Of a stretch of 21,614 bases of DNA, positions 1,148-11,440 are shown in pieces. A program made the translations under genes and the position numbers. The DNA is taken from positions 1 to 21,614 of IMG/VR virus record IMGVR_UViG_3300008448_005397; one strand, written 5' to 3'. The first letter of the stretch is position 1; the number at the start of each line of letters is the position of its first letter. The stretch comes from a virus. Below the pieces are notes generated by a model. It worked only from the letters and a program-made list of their open reading frames with translations, searched no databases and was not told where the DNA came from.

Positions 1148-2443
1148 TTAGGTATCTGGAGCAATCTCTCCAAAGCGGCAATACTGTCCGTCGTACCAGA
1201 GCTTAACGGCTCCGCATTCACCGTCGCGCTGCTTGGCAATGGCGATGATTGCCTCACCGCACTTCTCTGATCTGTCTCGATTGAGAAGCATTACGAGGTC
1301 AGCGTCGCGTTCAATCTGTCCAGAGTCCGCAAGATCGGTGAGCTTGGGTGATCTTCCCTTCTCCTTCTCGTTCTCTCTGTTCAGTTGCGCTAGTGATACC
1401 ACCGCAACCTTACACTCGGTGGCAATGCTCTTGAGTCGTCCGCTGACCTCTGCGATCTCGTAGGTTCGCTTCTCGGCAGACTTTGAGCCGTGGATCTTTT
1501 GCAAATAGTCGATCAACACCAGCTTCACGCCCCACTTACGAACCGCTCGACGAACGGTGGCGGTGATTGCCGCAATGTTGCTTACAGATGAACCAGACAC
1601 AAAATGGAGAGGACTGGATGCGATCCGTGAGCAAGCGTTGCTCATAGCCTTCATGCCACCTTCAGTCATGTTTCCGGTGCGGATATCCCCCATCGGGACT
1701 GAACCGATAGTGGAGACCATGCGACGGACGATTGATTCGTCTGACATCTCCAGCGAGACGAACAGTGTTGGAACTTTCCCAACGACAGCCGCTGCTTGAG
1801 CAAAGGCAATCGCCATGGCCGTCTTACCAATGGACGGACGAGCAGCTAGGATCGCCAGTTCTCCAAGCTGGAAACCATCAGTCATTTGGTCCAGCCGATA
1901 GAGTCCAGAAGTGATTCCAGACAACTGGCCTTTCCGCTGGAATCTCTCTTGGGTTGCGTCAATGAATCGTCCAACGACTGACTTTGCAGGTTGCAGTGTC
2001 TCCTTGGAGGCATCAATGGCGAGTCCCTGTTCGGCATTAGAGACGATTTGATCGACGCTGAGGGTGGAGACAGCGGACTCGCGCAAAAGGCGGTCTCCAG
2101 CGATTCGTAGTTGGCGACGGTGAGCGGCTTCAAGAACACCTTTGGCAAACATCGGATAGCTTGCTGGTGATGGAGAAGCTTCCATCGCTTTGTTCCAGAC
2201 CTCGAAAGGGACAGGCGTTGACGCGAAGACCCGCTTCCACTCCCGCATGACTTCGGTCAGTGCGATTGGCTTAGACTCAGCGACCAGCGACTTCAGCACG
2301 TCATAGGTCATTGCCAGAGTCTCGGTTTGGAACGCTGAGGTCTGGATCTCAGCGAACGCATCGGAGCAGGTATCAACCCCGCCGTTGAGGCAACAGCCGA
2401 TCACGGCGTGTTCGTCGTCGATAGCGTAAAACGGATCGTTCAT
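1148..2443 (-). CDS. dnaB: Replicative DNA helicase, DnaB family
   Basis: A 431-residue protein of full DnaB length. The N-terminal helical domain occupies about residues 8-140 (DEHAVIGCCL at its start), and the RecA-like ATPase domain runs from about 170 to the end. The Walker A motif RPSIGKT is near 202-208, the Walker B region LVLIDYLQ near 308-315, and SLAQLNRE marks a sensor region. It would unwind DNA ahead of the phage fork as a hexameric ring, 5'-to-3' in known members. Its ATG overlaps the stop of the DUF1376-type initiator by 4 bases (ATGA), the usual initiator-helicase pairing of phages. No inactivating change is visible. Confidence 0.96.
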   Translation of the reverse strand: MNDPFYAIDDEHAVIGCCLNGGVDTCSDAFAEIQTSAFQTETLAMTYDVLKSLVAESKPIALTEVMREWKRVFASTPVPFEVWNKAMEASPSPASYPMFAKGVLEAAHRRQLRIAGDRLLRESAVSTLSVDQIVSNAEQGLAIDASKETLQPAKSVVGRFIDATQERFQRKGQLSGITSGLYRLDQMTDGFQLGELAILAARPSIGKTAMAIAFAQAAAVVGKVPTLFVSLEMSDESIVRRMVSTIGSVPMGDIRTGNMTEGGMKAMSNACSRIASSPLHFVSGSSVSNIAAITATVRRAVRKWGVKLVLIDYLQKIHGSKSAEKRTYEIAEVSGRLKSIATECKVAVVSLAQLNRENEKEKGRSPKLTDLADSGQIERDADLVMLLNRDRSEKCGEAIIAIAKQRDGECGAVKLWYDGQYCRFGEIAPDT

Positions 2444-3222
2444 TGGTAGTCCTCAATGTTAAGGCTGAGGGTCTTGGACTTGGGCTGTGGCTGCTGTTGA
2501 TTCTTGGGTCTAAAAATCCCCGCCCAATTAGATGCTATGGCATGATCAACGATTGATGGGAACTCATCTGGCGTGAACTCGTCAGACCACTTTTTCAAAG
2601 CTCCTTTGAGTCCCGTCTTCTTGTATGACTCACGCCTTTCGGATTTATGCTGCATCCAGAGCTTAACGGCTTCTAGACAGTTCTCGGTCTGATAGGCTTC
2701 AGGAAGCTCGACTCCAAAAGCAACCTCCCATGGCGACTTCGGAGCCTTTACATTTAGAGTATTATTAGGAGTAGGAGAAGGAGAGCTATCTTGTGGCCAT
2801 GCTGTGGCCATTGGGGTCGCCATTGGGGTCGCTATAGCAACCCCATTAGGGTTGCCATTAGGGTCGCCATCCTTTTGCCATTTTGACCACCGCTTTTGCG
2901 CCCCATTGCGACCGGATGAAGCTTGTCGGAGCTTGTAAGCCTCCTGTTCAGCCCTTACTTGCTCCAATCTTTCGTTCCTAAGCATCCCGTCATCGCATAG
3001 CGAGAACTTAGCGAGAACATAGCCAAGTGATGGCGACCCCAATAGGGTTGCCATACGTCCAGCGCGGTCTGGATCGTTTGGAATTCCCCCTTTGGTCCAT
3101 TGATGGCAGAGTAATCGGATGTATCCACCAACTTCTTCCGCGCTCATGTCTGACGTTCCAGCTAGGAAGTCGTCAGCGTAGAATTGAAAAGCAGGAGCTT
3201 TGCGCTTCTGTTCTTCGCTCAT
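2440..3222 (-). CDS. DUF1376/YdaU-type replication initiator
   Basis: A 260-residue protein. The N-terminal part (about 10-95: APAFQFYADDFLAGTSDMSAEEVGGYIRLLCHQW in two pieces) is the DUF1376 pattern found in phage and prophage replication proteins, probably a winged-helix DNA-binding domain. A low-complexity linker (about 115-157) with NG/NP and ATPM repeats follows, and then a C-terminal domain (about 163-245) ending in FRPKNQQQPQPKSK. In known systems such proteins bind the origin and hand DNA to the helicase, which fits the 4-base overlap with the downstream dnaB. The linker is encoded by a repeat array described separately as a possible origin. It also overlaps the upstream 70-residue gene by 4 bases. 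Confidence 0.85.
   Translation of the reverse strand: MSEEQKRKAPAFQFYADDFLAGTSDMSAEEVGGYIRLLCHQWTKGGIPNDPDRAGRMATLLGSPSLGYVLAKFSLCDDGMLRNERLEQVRAEQEAYKLRQASSGRNGAQKRWSKWQKDGDPNGNPNGVAIATPMATPMATAWPQDSSPSPTPNNTLNVKAPKSPWEVAFGVELPEAYQTENCLEAVKLWMQHKSERRESYKKTGLKGALKKWSDEFTPDEFPSIVDHAIASNWAGIFRPKNQQQPQPKSKTLSLNIEDYQ
2747..3052. repeat. Iteron-like array inside the initiator gene, possible origin
   Basis: On the plus strand the octamer GGGTYGCY occurs at 2814-2821, 2826-2833, 2849-2856, 2861-2868 and 3045-3052, and its complement at 2836-2843 and 3032-3039. GCCATTGGGGTC is repeated exactly at 2807-2818 and 2819-2830, and the variants CCCATTAGGGTT and GCCATTAGGGTC follow at 2842-2853 and 2854-2865. 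A near-perfect 20-base palindrome, GGGGTCGCTATAGCAACCCC, sits at 2825-2844. A second dyad with arms 3032-3039 and 3045-3052 lies upstream. An AT-rich stretch (2747-2767) flanks the array. This is the layout of lambda's origin inside gene O. The origin role is inference. Confidence 0.5.
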
Positions 3223-3431: not shown

Positions 3432-3445
3432 GTAACAAACAGAAA

Positions 3446-3508
3446 CCCCACCCAGTCCGTGGTAGGAACTCCCGCTGAAGCGACGGGACGTACACGAAAA
3501 GGGTGGGG
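3446..3508. repeat. Nested-hairpin (REP-like) intergenic element 1
   Basis: The 150-base gap 3432-3581 is not coding in any convincing way and holds this palindrome. Outer arms are CCCCACCC (3446-3453) and GGGTGGGG (3501-3508). Inside, CGTG (3458-3461) can pair with CACG (3493-3496), and TCCCG (3470-3474) with CGGGA (3484-3488). A GTAG tetranucleotide at 3462-3465 precedes the innermost stem, as in many bacterial REP sequences that bear GTAG/GTGG next to an imperfect hairpin. On the minus strand it would fold in the leader of the gene at 3431, followed by a T/G-rich stretch. It may be a REP-type repeat, a structured RNA, or a terminator/attenuator. Confidence 0.5.
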
Positions 3509-3581
3509 ATAAATTGGTTGAACATGGCTTCAGTTAGATTGTCGGCACTCGCTTCCTACGGCTCGCGCTGACTCCTTACTG

Positions 3582-3764
3582 CTAACTCGGCTTCGGTCCT
3601 TCGTCCAGTGAAAACTTGTCGTAGAACTCGGCTTTCGGTCGAACGTAGAAGTAACCACCACGCTCGTAGACGACGCATAGCCGCTTGGTCTCACCGATGC
3701 GGAGTTGGGCCTCGGAGATGAACTCCACGATGACGTTTTGGTTGGCTTTAGATCTGAATCTCAT
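3582..3764 (-). CDS. Small conserved phage-type protein, unknown role
   Basis: A 60-residue protein. I chose the ATG at 3762-3764 because it overlaps the upstream stop by 4 bases and the sequence from MRFRSKANQNVIVEF onward reads as a compact fold. The open frame continues further upstream, but that part overlaps the neighbouring gene wholly. The pattern is strand-rich: VIVEFISEAQLRI, RLCVVYERGGYFYVRP, then AEFYDKF. 'Y-x-V-R-P-x-x-E-F' is reminiscent of small phage proteins with an SH3-like or cupin-like strand pattern, but I cannot name a family. It precedes the non-coding gap with the palindrome. Confidence 0.6.
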   Translation of the reverse strand: MRFRSKANQNVIVEFISEAQLRIGETKRLCVVYERGGYFYVRPKAEFYDKFSLDEGPKPS

Positions 3765-8370: not shown

Positions 8371-8793
8371 TCATTCAGCGTTGATTCTCACGCTGCATCC
8401 AGAGTGCTGCAGAGCGTAAGTCTTCGTCGCTGTGATCTGGTAGACCTGCGAGTCGTCGAGCCAGACCCGCTGAGTGTCGGTGATCGCATCGGTCACCGCT
8501 TTAATGAGGTTGTCCAAGTCTGGCTTTTTTGGGTGCCAGACCGGACTTTTGGGCTTCGGCCATCCATGCTTGTCCAAATGCGCTTTAGGTCGCGGTAGGA
8601 AGAAGTCTAGCTGGAGCCGAATCGGACCCGTCATAAGCGATTCTGGAGCGTTTGCGATGGCTTCCTGACGCACCGCTTGCTTCCAGACGTCTGCGGAATC
8701 TGGAGTGTAGACTCCAGCGTGATTCCCACGGCGGAACGCTTTGACTCGCGGTTGAGCCTTCGGAATTCCTGAGACATGGAAGTCAAGATGCAT
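8371..8793 (-). CDS. rusA: Holliday junction resolvase, RusA family
   Basis: A 140-residue protein of usual RusA length. The N-terminus has a strand (LDFHVSGIPKAQPR), a typical 'G-x-P-x-x-x-x-R' opening. The acidic catalytic block KKPDLDNLIKAVTDAI (residues 89-104) is followed by VWLDDSQV (110-117), which supplies the remaining acidic residues of the metal site. RusA dimers cut Holliday junctions and branched replication intermediates; in phages this supports recombination and packaging-ready DNA. It overlaps the OB-like gene upstream by 11 bases, and ends 7 bases from element 2. Confidence 0.93.
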   Translation of the reverse strand: MHLDFHVSGIPKAQPRVKAFRRGNHAGVYTPDSADVWKQAVRQEAIANAPESLMTGPIRLQLDFFLPRPKAHLDKHGWPKPKSPVWHPKKPDLDNLIKAVTDAITDTQRVWLDDSQVYQITATKTYALQHSGCSVRINAE

Positions 8794-9103
8794 GGCTGAT
8801 CTCGTGGATGCGGCCAGTCACGCGAGGGTTGGCATACCACCAGCCGGTCTGACTCTTATCGGCGGTCGCATCGCAATCACCGTCGAACATGATGTATGTG
8901 CCAGCGACTAGCTGGTCCACGATCTCCATGTCGTCGCGATCGAACGATCGGAACTGGACCCTTTGAGAGTACGGCTTGCCGTTCCCCAACGTGCGCTGCT
9001 CAAACTCAATGACAGCCAGCAGGAAGGTCTTGCCGTCGTCTGTGGTGATGATCTCTGCGTCTCGGTACAACTTGCCGAAACCCCTAGCCCATAAGTGTCT
9101 CAC
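8783..9103 (-). CDS. OB-fold-like single-strand DNA-binding protein
   Basis: A 106-residue protein with a GTG start (9101-9103) overlapping the upstream stop (GTGA). RHLWARGFGKLYRDAEI at the start and the strand series FLLAVIEFEQRT, SQRVQFRSFDRDD, GTYIMFDGDCDAT, WYANPRVTGRI follow the SSB order of a first strand, a beta-hairpin, 'V-x-F-(x)-x-F' and a 'v-x-G' strand. There is no acidic C-terminal tip, unlike host-type SSB; that tip is instead present on the protein at 785-1072. Its place between MazG-like/recombination genes and rusA supports a DNA-metabolism role. Confidence 0.65.
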   Translation of the reverse strand: MRHLWARGFGKLYRDAEIITTDDGKTFLLAVIEFEQRTLGNGKPYSQRVQFRSFDRDDMEIVDQLVAGTYIMFDGDCDATADKSQTGWWYANPRVTGRIHEISHAS

Positions 9104-9534
9104 AGCGTGTACCCTCCCAAGCGAGCCGGTGAGTAGGACGGAGACTTCACGATCTTACCGTCACTTCGACGGACAATGTGCCGGTTGTCTCCAACGCGAG
9201 TGGACCGGCAGTCAGCAGGGATGGAGTCGATCTCGTCGTCAGACCAGCACTTGCTCATGTTGGAGCGGTGGATCTCGCAGAAGGCAGCATCGACTTGATG
9301 CGGAGAGAATCCAGCAGCGAGCGCGGCTCCATAGACGACGTAAAGCAGATCCCCAACTGCGTCGAGGTACTCGGTTTTATCGGTAGCCTCATTGAGTTCT
9401 TGGGCTTCTTCGTCGATCAGTCGATACCGGAGATTTTGCGTCACGGGATCTGGCATGACTGGAGTGGCTGGAACATACTGCTGGAATGTTCGCATAAATT
9501 CGCGGACCAATTCCATTGGGTGGGTCTGGTTCAT
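9100..9534 (-). CDS. MazG-like nucleotide pyrophosphohydrolase
   Basis: A 144-residue protein. The ATG at 9532-9534 overlaps the nuclease stop by 4 bases (ATGA), so it is preferred to the longer frame. LIDEEAQELNEA (39-50) supplies the EExxE metal motif and YLDAVGDLLYVVYG (56-69) the second acidic motif, as in all-alpha NTP-PPases of the MazG/PRA-PH group. The C-terminal SDGKIVKSPSYSPARL is typical of phage members. These enzymes release pyrophosphate from (d)NTPs. In phage the role could be nucleotide-pool or (p)ppGpp-related; the substrate cannot be told from sequence. Confidence 0.85.
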   Translation of the reverse strand: MNQTHPMELVREFMRTFQQYVPATPVMPDPVTQNLRYRLIDEEAQELNEATDKTEYLDAVGDLLYVVYGAALAAGFSPHQVDAAFCEIHRSNMSKCWSDDEIDSIPADCRSTRVGDNRHIVRRSDGKIVKSPSYSPARLGGYTL

Positions 9535-10634
9535 TTGATTCTGGTCAGTGTGGGTTGAGAGGCTTTCGATTCGATACATCCGTCGAGCAGAACCGTAAGC
9601 TTTGCGTCGAGTTCTTTTCCTTTGGTTTCGGTTGCCACTTTCAACGCATCTTTGAGCTTCGTTTTGTTGATCGTTATGGCTGGCATGATGTCCTCGTAAG
9701 TCCCGCCACTTTCGATAAATCGAAGGTAAACGGTCTCGGTGTCTTTGATGGTCTCACGCACTGCACCTTCCTTCAGCGTCCACCCTTCGATTGCATCTCC
9801 TTCGGAGAGCCTCCGTCGGGCCTCAGTTCGGCAAGCCTCAATGACAGCTTCCGCTTGCGCTGCACGGTCCAAGAACGCTGCAAGAGTCTGGTTGGTCAGT
9901 GTGGCGGCTATAGCGTCTGGCGTTATGCCTTCTGGCGCATTGGTGAGCGGACCAGCAACGGCCAACTCTCGCGCTTCGGGACAGAACGGTTTCCCTTTGC
10001 AGTACCGGCAAGCGGACTCGGATGGAGTGCGCGGATGCCCAATCTTCTGGATCTGCTCCATCAGATCAGCAGACTCAGCAATTGCGTTGCGGATATCTTG
10101 CGACTCATAGACTGCGACACTCGGCAGTCCTGCAAGAGGCTGCACAATTGCCACAGTGATCCGGTCAAACGTGAACCCAAAGTTCTCGTCGAGCAGAGCG
10201 ACAAGACAGCGCAACTGGAGGTTCTCGGCAGCGTTCTCAACGGCACCGCGACCAGACTTGTAGTCGATGATCAGGCCAGCAGAGCCGACAACGTAGATGA
10301 CATCCGGTTTTCCGCTCCACAGTTTGACTCCACGGTCGTCGATGGACCACAGACGCTTCTCGCGCCACACATTCGGCTCTTCGGTGGCTTCTGGGAACGT
10401 CGCTTTGACCAACTCCAGCTCCTGCTCTCTGCAACGGTCAATCGTCCACGTCTCGTCTGAGGTCAGATTCTCAACTGGCTCCAGCGCAAGAGCGGCGTGG
10501 ATGCGGTTTCCAACGGTCGCGTCATTCGTTGCTGCTCCTTCTGCAATCTGCTTTTCAAGCTGCCAGCTACCGAGACAAGCAGCATATCGGCTCGCAGACG
10601 ATGCAGACGGCAAACCTAAGCGTTCGTCACTCAT
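9531..10634 (-). CDS. PD-(D/E)XK nuclease, RecB/Cas4-like
   Basis: A 367-residue protein. The ATG at 10632-10634 is chosen because the domain begins there; residues upstream are an Arg/Ser-rich readthrough of the recT frame. Visible active-site elements: GNRIH (His46), GKPDVIYV (Asp111), IIDYKSG (Asp124, Lys126) and LQL (Gln140), the RecB-type order. Cys20, Cys209, Cys212 and Cys218 fit the four-cysteine iron-sulphur cluster of AddB/Cas4-type nucleases. Likely a DNA exonuclease that makes 3' single strands for the RecT protein just upstream in the same operon. It overlaps recT by 8 bases. Confidence 0.88.
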   Translation of the reverse strand: MSDERLGLPSASSASRYAACLGSWQLEKQIAEGAATNDATVGNRIHAALALEPVENLTSDETWTIDRCREQELELVKATFPEATEEPNVWREKRLWSIDDRGVKLWSGKPDVIYVVGSAGLIIDYKSGRGAVENAAENLQLRCLVALLDENFGFTFDRITVAIVQPLAGLPSVAVYESQDIRNAIAESADLMEQIQKIGHPRTPSESACRYCKGKPFCPEARELAVAGPLTNAPEGITPDAIAATLTNQTLAAFLDRAAQAEAVIEACRTEARRRLSEGDAIEGWTLKEGAVRETIKDTETVYLRFIESGGTYEDIMPAITINKTKLKDALKVATETKGKELDAKLTVLLDGCIESKASQPTLTRIK

Positions 10635-11286
10635 TGGTCGTCTCCTCGGTCGCGGGTTGAGCGTTGGTCTCGACACTGACGCTCGGTATGACAATCGGAG
10701 GCTCGACAGTCGGCTCCAACTTAGAGCGGAAGATGGGCCGAGACGGAGTGACGTTGAGCGCGACTTGCGGGACAGCTTCTTCGTCGTCAGCAATGCCAGA
10801 GAACCCAAACGCAACGCGAGCGCACTGGATCAACGCTTTGTGTCGCAGCATTCGACGAGGGTTGACCTTCCACGGTTCGGTGTTGCGTGAACACTCCGAG
10901 AAGTACTCGGTGACCTCCACCGGATGGGCGCGATTTTTGAGATAGATGGTCGCGGTGACCGAGTGGGTCTTTCCGTCTTTCTCGTCGGTGGTGAACAGAA
11001 TTCCGTCAAACTGCGGATGCCGGTTCATTAGCTTTATCCAGCCATCGACAGAGACGACCGGAGTGATTCCGCCAGAGCGACCGGGGAATGCGTAAATCTC
11101 TTTTGTGAACGGGTTGAGATCGTACTGGTTAGCGACTACCACAAACGCCAAAAGCTCCTCGTTGGTAGCCTTCGGCATCAGTGTCGTGCGGAGTGTATCA
11201 AGCAGACGTGTCGGCTCCACCGAGAACTTGGACGCCATTATCGCGAGCGCGGACTGCTTCTGACTTGGGATCAACTCTTGTTTCAT
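10627..11286 (-). CDS. RecT/Bet-family single-strand annealing protein
   Basis: A 219-residue protein. The Bet-like core is clear: MASKFSVEPTRLLDTL, then NEELLAFVVVANQYDLNPF and TKEIYAFPGRSGGITPVVSVDGW, followed by IKLMNRHPQFDGI. It anneals complementary strands and would work with the nuclease encoded next. The ATG at 11284-11286 is preferred because AAAGAAG lies just before it; an internal ATG (11236-11238) is an alternative. The C-terminal 60 residues are Pro/Thr/Glu-rich and probably disordered. It overlaps the zinc-ribbon frame by up to 89 bases. Confidence 0.93.
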   Translation of the reverse strand: MKQELIPSQKQSALAIMASKFSVEPTRLLDTLRTTLMPKATNEELLAFVVVANQYDLNPFTKEIYAFPGRSGGITPVVSVDGWIKLMNRHPQFDGILFTTDEKDGKTHSVTATIYLKNRAHPVEVTEYFSECSRNTEPWKVNPRRMLRHKALIQCARVAFGFSGIADDEEAVPQVALNVTPSRPIFRSKLEPTVEPPIVIPSVSVETNAQPATEETTNE

Positions 11287-11440
11287 AGGTCTTCTTTGGC
11301 CTTCCACCGCGCTTTCCATTCGCACGGGCAGTTTTGGCCTTTGCCGGTGAAGATTTCCGCCCCATCTCCTGCGCGATCTCGCGAAGGCTAACGGCAAAGA
11401 TATGCTGACAGGACGGACATTTCATCGGCTGGACAGACAT
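11198..11440 (-). CDS. Small zinc-ribbon and basic-motif protein
   Basis: An 80-residue frame. MKCPSCQHIF gives one CxxC near the start, and KTARANGKRGGRPKK (about 36-50) is a common Lys/Arg/Gly motif of phage and bacterial DNA-associated proteins. With only one CxxC, zinc binding would need a partner or dimer. The last part overlaps recT by 89 bases, which is unusual here, so the 3' end may be an artefact or the proteins may be coupled. It is the first gene after the tail module and its ATG abuts an operator-like dyad. Confidence 0.5.
   Translation of the reverse strand: MSVQPMKCPSCQHIFAVSLREIAQEMGRKSSPAKAKTARANGKRGGRPKKTYETRVDPKSEAVRARDNGVQVLGGADTSA

Follow-up and report, generated by a model that had tools for sequence, protein, structure and literature searches.

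In phage lambda, the O protein binds repeated sites through its N-terminal domain and recruits the helicase machinery through its C-terminal domain, and origin-type-specific variants exist among lambdoid phages. The lambda origin, ori-lambda, lies within gene O, and its repeated sites sit beside a weak stretch that is also intragenic (PMC6022878). Origins are likewise located inside the initiator genes of pSK41 and pT181 (PMC5703833). The pSK41 initiator, Rep, is a RepA_N protein with a winged-helix N-domain and a separate C-domain, and its origin is in the rep coding region (PMC5703833).

We analysed a linear 21.6-kb IMG/VR record (21,614 bp, hereafter the window). Like lambda gene O, a DUF1376 gene in this record contains repeated sites and an adjoining weak stretch within an initiator-type gene. 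While origins inside initiator genes are already known, we found none described for DUF1376: the literature that we found (mostly freely accessible papers), including on DUF1376 or YdaU together with iterons, reports no origin in a DUF1376 gene. The sequence comparisons below suggest that the DUF1376 gene likely encodes a phage initiator and contains its own lambda-type origin, bound by the DUF1376 protein.

Repeated sites in a DUF1376 gene

The DUF1376 gene of the window (positions 2440-3222, minus strand) encodes a proposed replication initiator of 260 amino acids, assigned from Pfam, PHROG and an AF2 model. The protein meets the curated Pfam cut-off for PF07120 (33.5 bits versus 30.1, E=5.6e-8) and matches phrog_9327 and phrog_3992, annotated as 'primosomal protein' (E=4e-16 and E=2e-15). 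Next to the DUF1376 gene is a helicase or helicase-loader gene; in the window, this neighbour is a DnaB-like replicative helicase (positions 1148-2443, minus strand; PF03796, E=2e-73; phrog_19, E=3e-77), whose start overlaps the DUF1376 stop. Recombination genes for a RecT-like annealing protein, a PD-(D/E)XK exonuclease and a RusA resolvase are encoded at positions 8371-11397 and share their strand with the replication genes. A host scan of genomes returned a single match, to a Pedosphaera MAG contig from Lake Baikal, which is too thin a basis for a host assignment.

A sequence-only reading of this DNA had proposed that the octamer GGGTYGCY occurs seven times within about 240 bases of the DUF1376 gene. 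All seven copies are present, within 239 bp, at positions 2814, 2826, 2836 (minus strand), 2849, 2861, 3032 (minus strand) and 3045. The octamer is also rare beyond this gene, as that reading required, with two copies (12738 and 15873) in the remaining ~20.8 kb. The total of nine in the record compares with a mean of 2.16 and a maximum of 6 in shuffled sequences, and 0 of 100 shuffles reached nine. In eight records of 21-41 kb, the class-specific motif (see below) is present in 5-10 copies in the DUF1376 gene and in three or fewer copies in any other 800-nt stretch. Cumulative GC skew in eight incomplete records with gene-strand bias gave scattered minima and no consistent signal, and carries no weight for or against an origin; in the window, the minimum is at 20.9 kb.

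The sites form two clusters. Cluster 1 (positions 3030-3054) is a 25-bp hyphenated palindrome, ATGGCgACCCCAATAGGGTtGCCAT, in the winged-helix code (codons 57-65), with 10-bp arms and one mismatched pair. It contains the dyad previously noted at 3032-3052, which inspection by eye bore out and extended. Cluster 1 is defined by its sequence, by synonymous constraint and by a class-specific match to the linker array. Cluster 2 (positions 2814-2869) is an array of five sites in the linker code, defined by sequence and synonymous constraint. Its sites are at 2861-2869, 2849-2857, 2837-2843 (inverted), 2826-2833 and 2814-2822; read along the gene strand, two direct sites precede the inverted one and two follow it, mostly in 12-bp steps. 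The previously described pair of exact 12-mers (2807-2818 and 2819-2830) was found as claimed, each reading GCCATTGGGGTC, and the variant repeats (2842-2865) and near-palindrome (2825-2844) were likewise recognized by eye. Directly after the array is an SPSPTP-coding tract, TCTCCTTCTCCTACTCCT (positions 2767-2784, minus strand), that is kept in all motif classes.

The AF2 model of the protein has an N-domain winged helix (helices at residues 28-44, 51-58 and 66-70, plus a wing), with mean pLDDT mostly 77-89 over residues 20-100. Beyond it, a long helix spans residues 84-118, residues 122-160 form a disordered linker, and the C-domain is helical; the overall pTM is 0.36. Fold comparison retrieved generic winged helices only, of which the best was ORC2 (Z 5.4). 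A Foldseek search returned nothing below E=0.001 and again generic winged helices only, and a family-profile sequence search of solved structures gave no meaningful match. In the model, helix 66-70 is probably the recognition helix. Cluster 1 encodes the segment just before this helix, and the coding DNA of the putative reader thus doubles as its proposed target.

Upstream of the replication genes (window 3432-3600, minus strand), we also observed a non-coding element of ~150 nt. In at least 40 of 80 relatives, representing all motif classes, the element aligns with 80-99% identity. It is predicted to form a long hairpin with compensatory changes (for example, at two pairs CG is replaced by UA in 7-8 of 26 sequences, and GC replaces CG in 6), the outer helix of which would pair the ACAUG start codon. 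A comparison of the element with Rfam gave no match. The replication operon may have a new leader RNA here.

DNA-level constraint and exchange of a cassette

The linker octamer is read as GDPN (GGC GAC CCT), as MATP (ATG GCG ACC CCA) and, inverted, as NGVA, and the octamer in the winged-helix code is read as MATLLGSP. A motif that occurs in two frames and on both strands cannot have a peptide repeat as its source. The octamer also recurs in DNA that encodes a folded domain, at the dyad that had been argued to escape a codon-repeat explanation.

We compared the window with 80 relatives, which together provide 60 unique DUF1376 genes. For each gene, we counted the 8-mers that the linker has in common with the winged-helix region (nt 120-225) and compared the count to 500 synonymous shuffles (p<0.05). 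Shared 8-mers exceed the shuffles in 59 of the 60 genes; the window has 20, versus a shuffle mean of 2.0 and maximum of 10. Synonymous divergence (the proportion of codon pairs for the same residue that are not identical) has a median of 0.41 among class A genes but falls to 0.04-0.05 at codons 61-68 and 117-127, to 0.07 at codons 141-147 and to 0.15 over the SPSPTP tract. Gene conversion could depress divergence locally, yet these dips coincide with the sites. The repeats are DNA sites under DNA-level selection inside an initiator-type coding sequence. A second zone of low synonymous change (0.12-0.15) is found just downstream of the palindrome in the window (2977-3015, codons ~70-82) and in relatives; it surrounds a conserved AAGTTC and has no obvious repeat.

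Close relatives keep 5-7 octamers in the DUF1376 gene and have almost none outside it. In other relatives the repeat sequence differs while the layout is the same, with sites in the winged-helix code (gene nt ~125-200) and the linker code (nt ~330-430). Among the 60 unique genes, we distinguished motif classes A (GGGTYGC, 31 genes), B (CGGTTGA/CAACCG, 11 genes), D (CCACCGCAT, 7 genes) and E (CCAACGCA/GCATATGCC, 11 genes). The Baikal contig, a diverged relative (L165), has a fifth motif, ATGGCCGG, with one copy in the domain and three in the linker. Within classes, the mean numbers of 8-mers shared between winged helix and linker are 13.9, 19.2, 10.7 and 18.3 for the four classes; across classes, A and B share fewer than one with any other class and D and E are partly alike (~9), a matrix that is not fully independent because the classes were defined from whole-gene motif counts. 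The per-gene shuffle test is independent of the class definition. Thus the repeats do persist in relatives, as an origin had been expected to show, under synonymous constraint, in several reading phases and with the two clusters co-varying, and the class changes with the winged-helix domain.

The class changes map to a discrete block. L012 of class A and L077 of class D, for example, are 97% identical in codons 1-24 and in 200 nt of upstream DNA; identity drops to 43% in the winged helix and 26% in the linker array and returns to 94-95% in the SPSP tract, C-domain and downstream DNA. Across 21 cross-class pairs, identity is 88-99% in the C-domain and only 33-49% in the cassette, and in several such pairs the SPSPTP tract is 94-100% identical. 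Two records of ~31-34 kb place the break points at gene nt ~72 and ~428; these two phages have little in common outside the replication region. When break points mapped in relatives are placed on the window by gene position, the exchanged block, comprising the winged-helix domain and both clusters (gene nt ~72-427), corresponds to positions 2796-3151 (minus strand). Judged from these alignments, the exchange between phages with ~95% identity on either side was confined to nt ~72-427, a putative reader domain together with its sites. The winged helix encoded in this block would be the simplest reader of the sites.

Other DUF1376 genes and E. coli K-12 ydaU

We examined a diverse set of 28 DUF1376 genes that are mutually less than 60% identical and span E. 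coli, Pseudomonas, Bordetella, Rhizobium, Azospirillum, Moraxella, Acinetobacter, Vibrio and others, with 150 neighbouring ORFs as controls. Excess linker repeats were detected in 25 of the 28 genes (12 of 150 controls) and excess inverted or out-of-phase repeats in 19 (8 of 150 controls). Only 14 of the 28 genes show a significant match between winged helix and linker (9 of 150 controls; 13 in a run with fewer shuffles), and elsewhere only the linker array is evident. For example, CGTTGAAC occurs at nt 182, 193, 364 and 385 in the gene of Pseudomonas phage UFJF_PfDIW6, and AACCCATT at nt 215, 226, 374 and 439 in that of Acinetobacter phage ZC3 (0-based, either strand).

In the window, the least stable 40 nt of the gene in a nearest-neighbour profile (positions 2750-2789) adjoin the array and represent a proposed unwinding region. 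The AT-rich flank that had been remarked upon (2747-2767) does fall in this least stable part. The stretch is less stable than synonymous recodings (p=0.002). Among 27 of the diverse DUF1376 genes, the least stable 40 nt lie at nt 330-500 in 22 (~21% expected), and the stretch at nt 370-480 is weaker than synonymous recodings in 19. Directly after the array, the unrelated DUF1376 genes L175, L176, L177 and L178 have tandem 5-6 bp units (GAAGA, GATACA, CCAGAA and TCTCCT) that encode dipeptide-like repeats, comparable to positions 2767-2784 of the window. Such short tandem tracts are perhaps part of the unwinding region.

YdaU, encoded by the Rac prophage of E. coli K-12, matches DUF1376 (E=2.7e-26). 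The ydaU linker code (L084:10500-10620) contains direct and inverted TGTTCAAACA repeats followed by the weakest DNA of the gene. Significance is reached for the ydaU linker array (p=0.003) and not for a match to the winged-helix region (p=0.11); compared with recodings, the weak stretch at nt 434 is a borderline case (p=0.065). Rac has been reported to have an active origin, oriJ (PMC3945230), the position of which was not found in the literature searched. The ydaU segment of repeats and weak DNA is, from its sequence, a candidate position for oriJ. If DUF1376 is an initiator class with an intragenic origin, oriJ should lie within ydaU. An alignment of the C-domains of YdaU-like proteins was too diverse to serve as a profile.

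Origin reading, rivals and known systems

An origin fits the combination of sites inside an initiator-type gene, an adjacent stretch that is in many cases less stable than the protein sequence demands, and a neighbouring gene for a helicase or loader. In such an origin, the winged helix would bind the palindromic site in the DNA that encodes that same winged helix, as well as the five-site array in linker-coding DNA. The array would be loaded with bound copies, and a loop may bring the two clusters together. The loaded protein could then melt the weak stretch at 2750-2789, after which its C-terminal domain would recruit the neighbouring DnaB-like helicase.

The main rival is autoregulation, which could act instead of or alongside replication. 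In its strict form, the sites are an intragenic operator from which the DUF1376 protein represses or road-blocks its own operon, and the true origin is elsewhere. Autoregulated iteron plasmids, too, combine a palindrome with direct repeats, and an operator accounts equally well for the constraint, the co-variation and the cassette exchange. An operator does not, however, predict a weak stretch across diverse DUF1376 genes that often goes beyond the amino-acid requirement, nor a multi-site array well inside the gene, and the protein is filed as primosomal and encoded beside a helicase; we regard this explanation as unlikely.

Sites read by another phage or host protein, for instance in partition, packaging or recombination, are a distinctly more remote prospect. 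Assignment of the DUF1376 protein as reader rests on co-variation in sequence, and phages with different cassettes differ in most other genes too, such that a distant reader is conceivable. Against this, motif class and winged helix change inside one ~355-bp block in genes whose 5' end, C-domain and helicase are 90-97% alike. Least probable is that the repeats simply reflect a low-complexity linker, arising through codon repeats or tandem duplication, with no function as DNA. The linker is predicted to be disordered and several DUF1376 linkers have dipeptide-like tracts, but the same octamer occurs in two frames, inverted and again in a folded domain, and the shared 8-mers above synonymous shuffles, the synonymous freeze and the excess of inverted or out-of-phase repeats also speak against it. 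The frame, inversion, synonymous-constraint and shuffle tests rule out a peptide-repeat explanation.

Returning to the origin reading, we see an even chance that it extends to DUF1376 as a broad class of phage and prophage initiators, including K-12 YdaU, whose origin lies in the gene that encodes them. For at least one large clade with sites in linker and winged-helix code, reader and origin would form a ~355-bp cassette that is exchanged as a unit and switches origin specificity. A widespread domain of unknown function would thereby gain a specific, testable role, and the Rac origin of E. coli K-12 a candidate position. Natural phage pairs are available whose replication genes differ mainly by the swapped cassette of putative reader plus origin. 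A coding segment that is also the proposed target of its own encoded domain would let one study directly how the specificities of initiator and origin shift together.

Beyond the shared arrangement described at the outset, the window differs from lambda in several respects. Its DNA-binding domain is DUF1376. Where lambda has four 18-bp inverted repeats, the window has ~9-bp half-sites, direct and inverted, in ~12-bp steps, and a further matching cluster in the DNA-binding-domain code. The neighbouring gene encodes a DnaB-like helicase rather than P. A Pfam search of the window protein identified only DUF1376, with no match to the replication protein O N-domain or to RepA_N. Gifsy phages and mEpX1 have lambda-O-like proteins that match the C-terminal part of YdaU, and the window C-domain aligns to YdaU by hhalign with a probability of only 26% (E=7e-4). 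YdaU resembles the window protein in being DUF1376 and in having linker-code repeats followed by its weakest DNA. Unlike the window gene, ydaU neighbours the gene for ATP-binding YdaV instead of a DnaB-like helicase, and lacks a significant winged-helix match. Like pSK41 Rep, the window protein has a winged-helix N-domain, a separate C-domain and sites inside its coding region. It differs from RepA_N in Pfam assignment, and its fold match to the RepA_N structures 5kbj, 4pt7 and 4pta is weak (Z 4.0-4.3, within the winged-helix background range). By sequence neither lambda O nor RepA_N, the window protein would thus work like these initiators while belonging to neither family.
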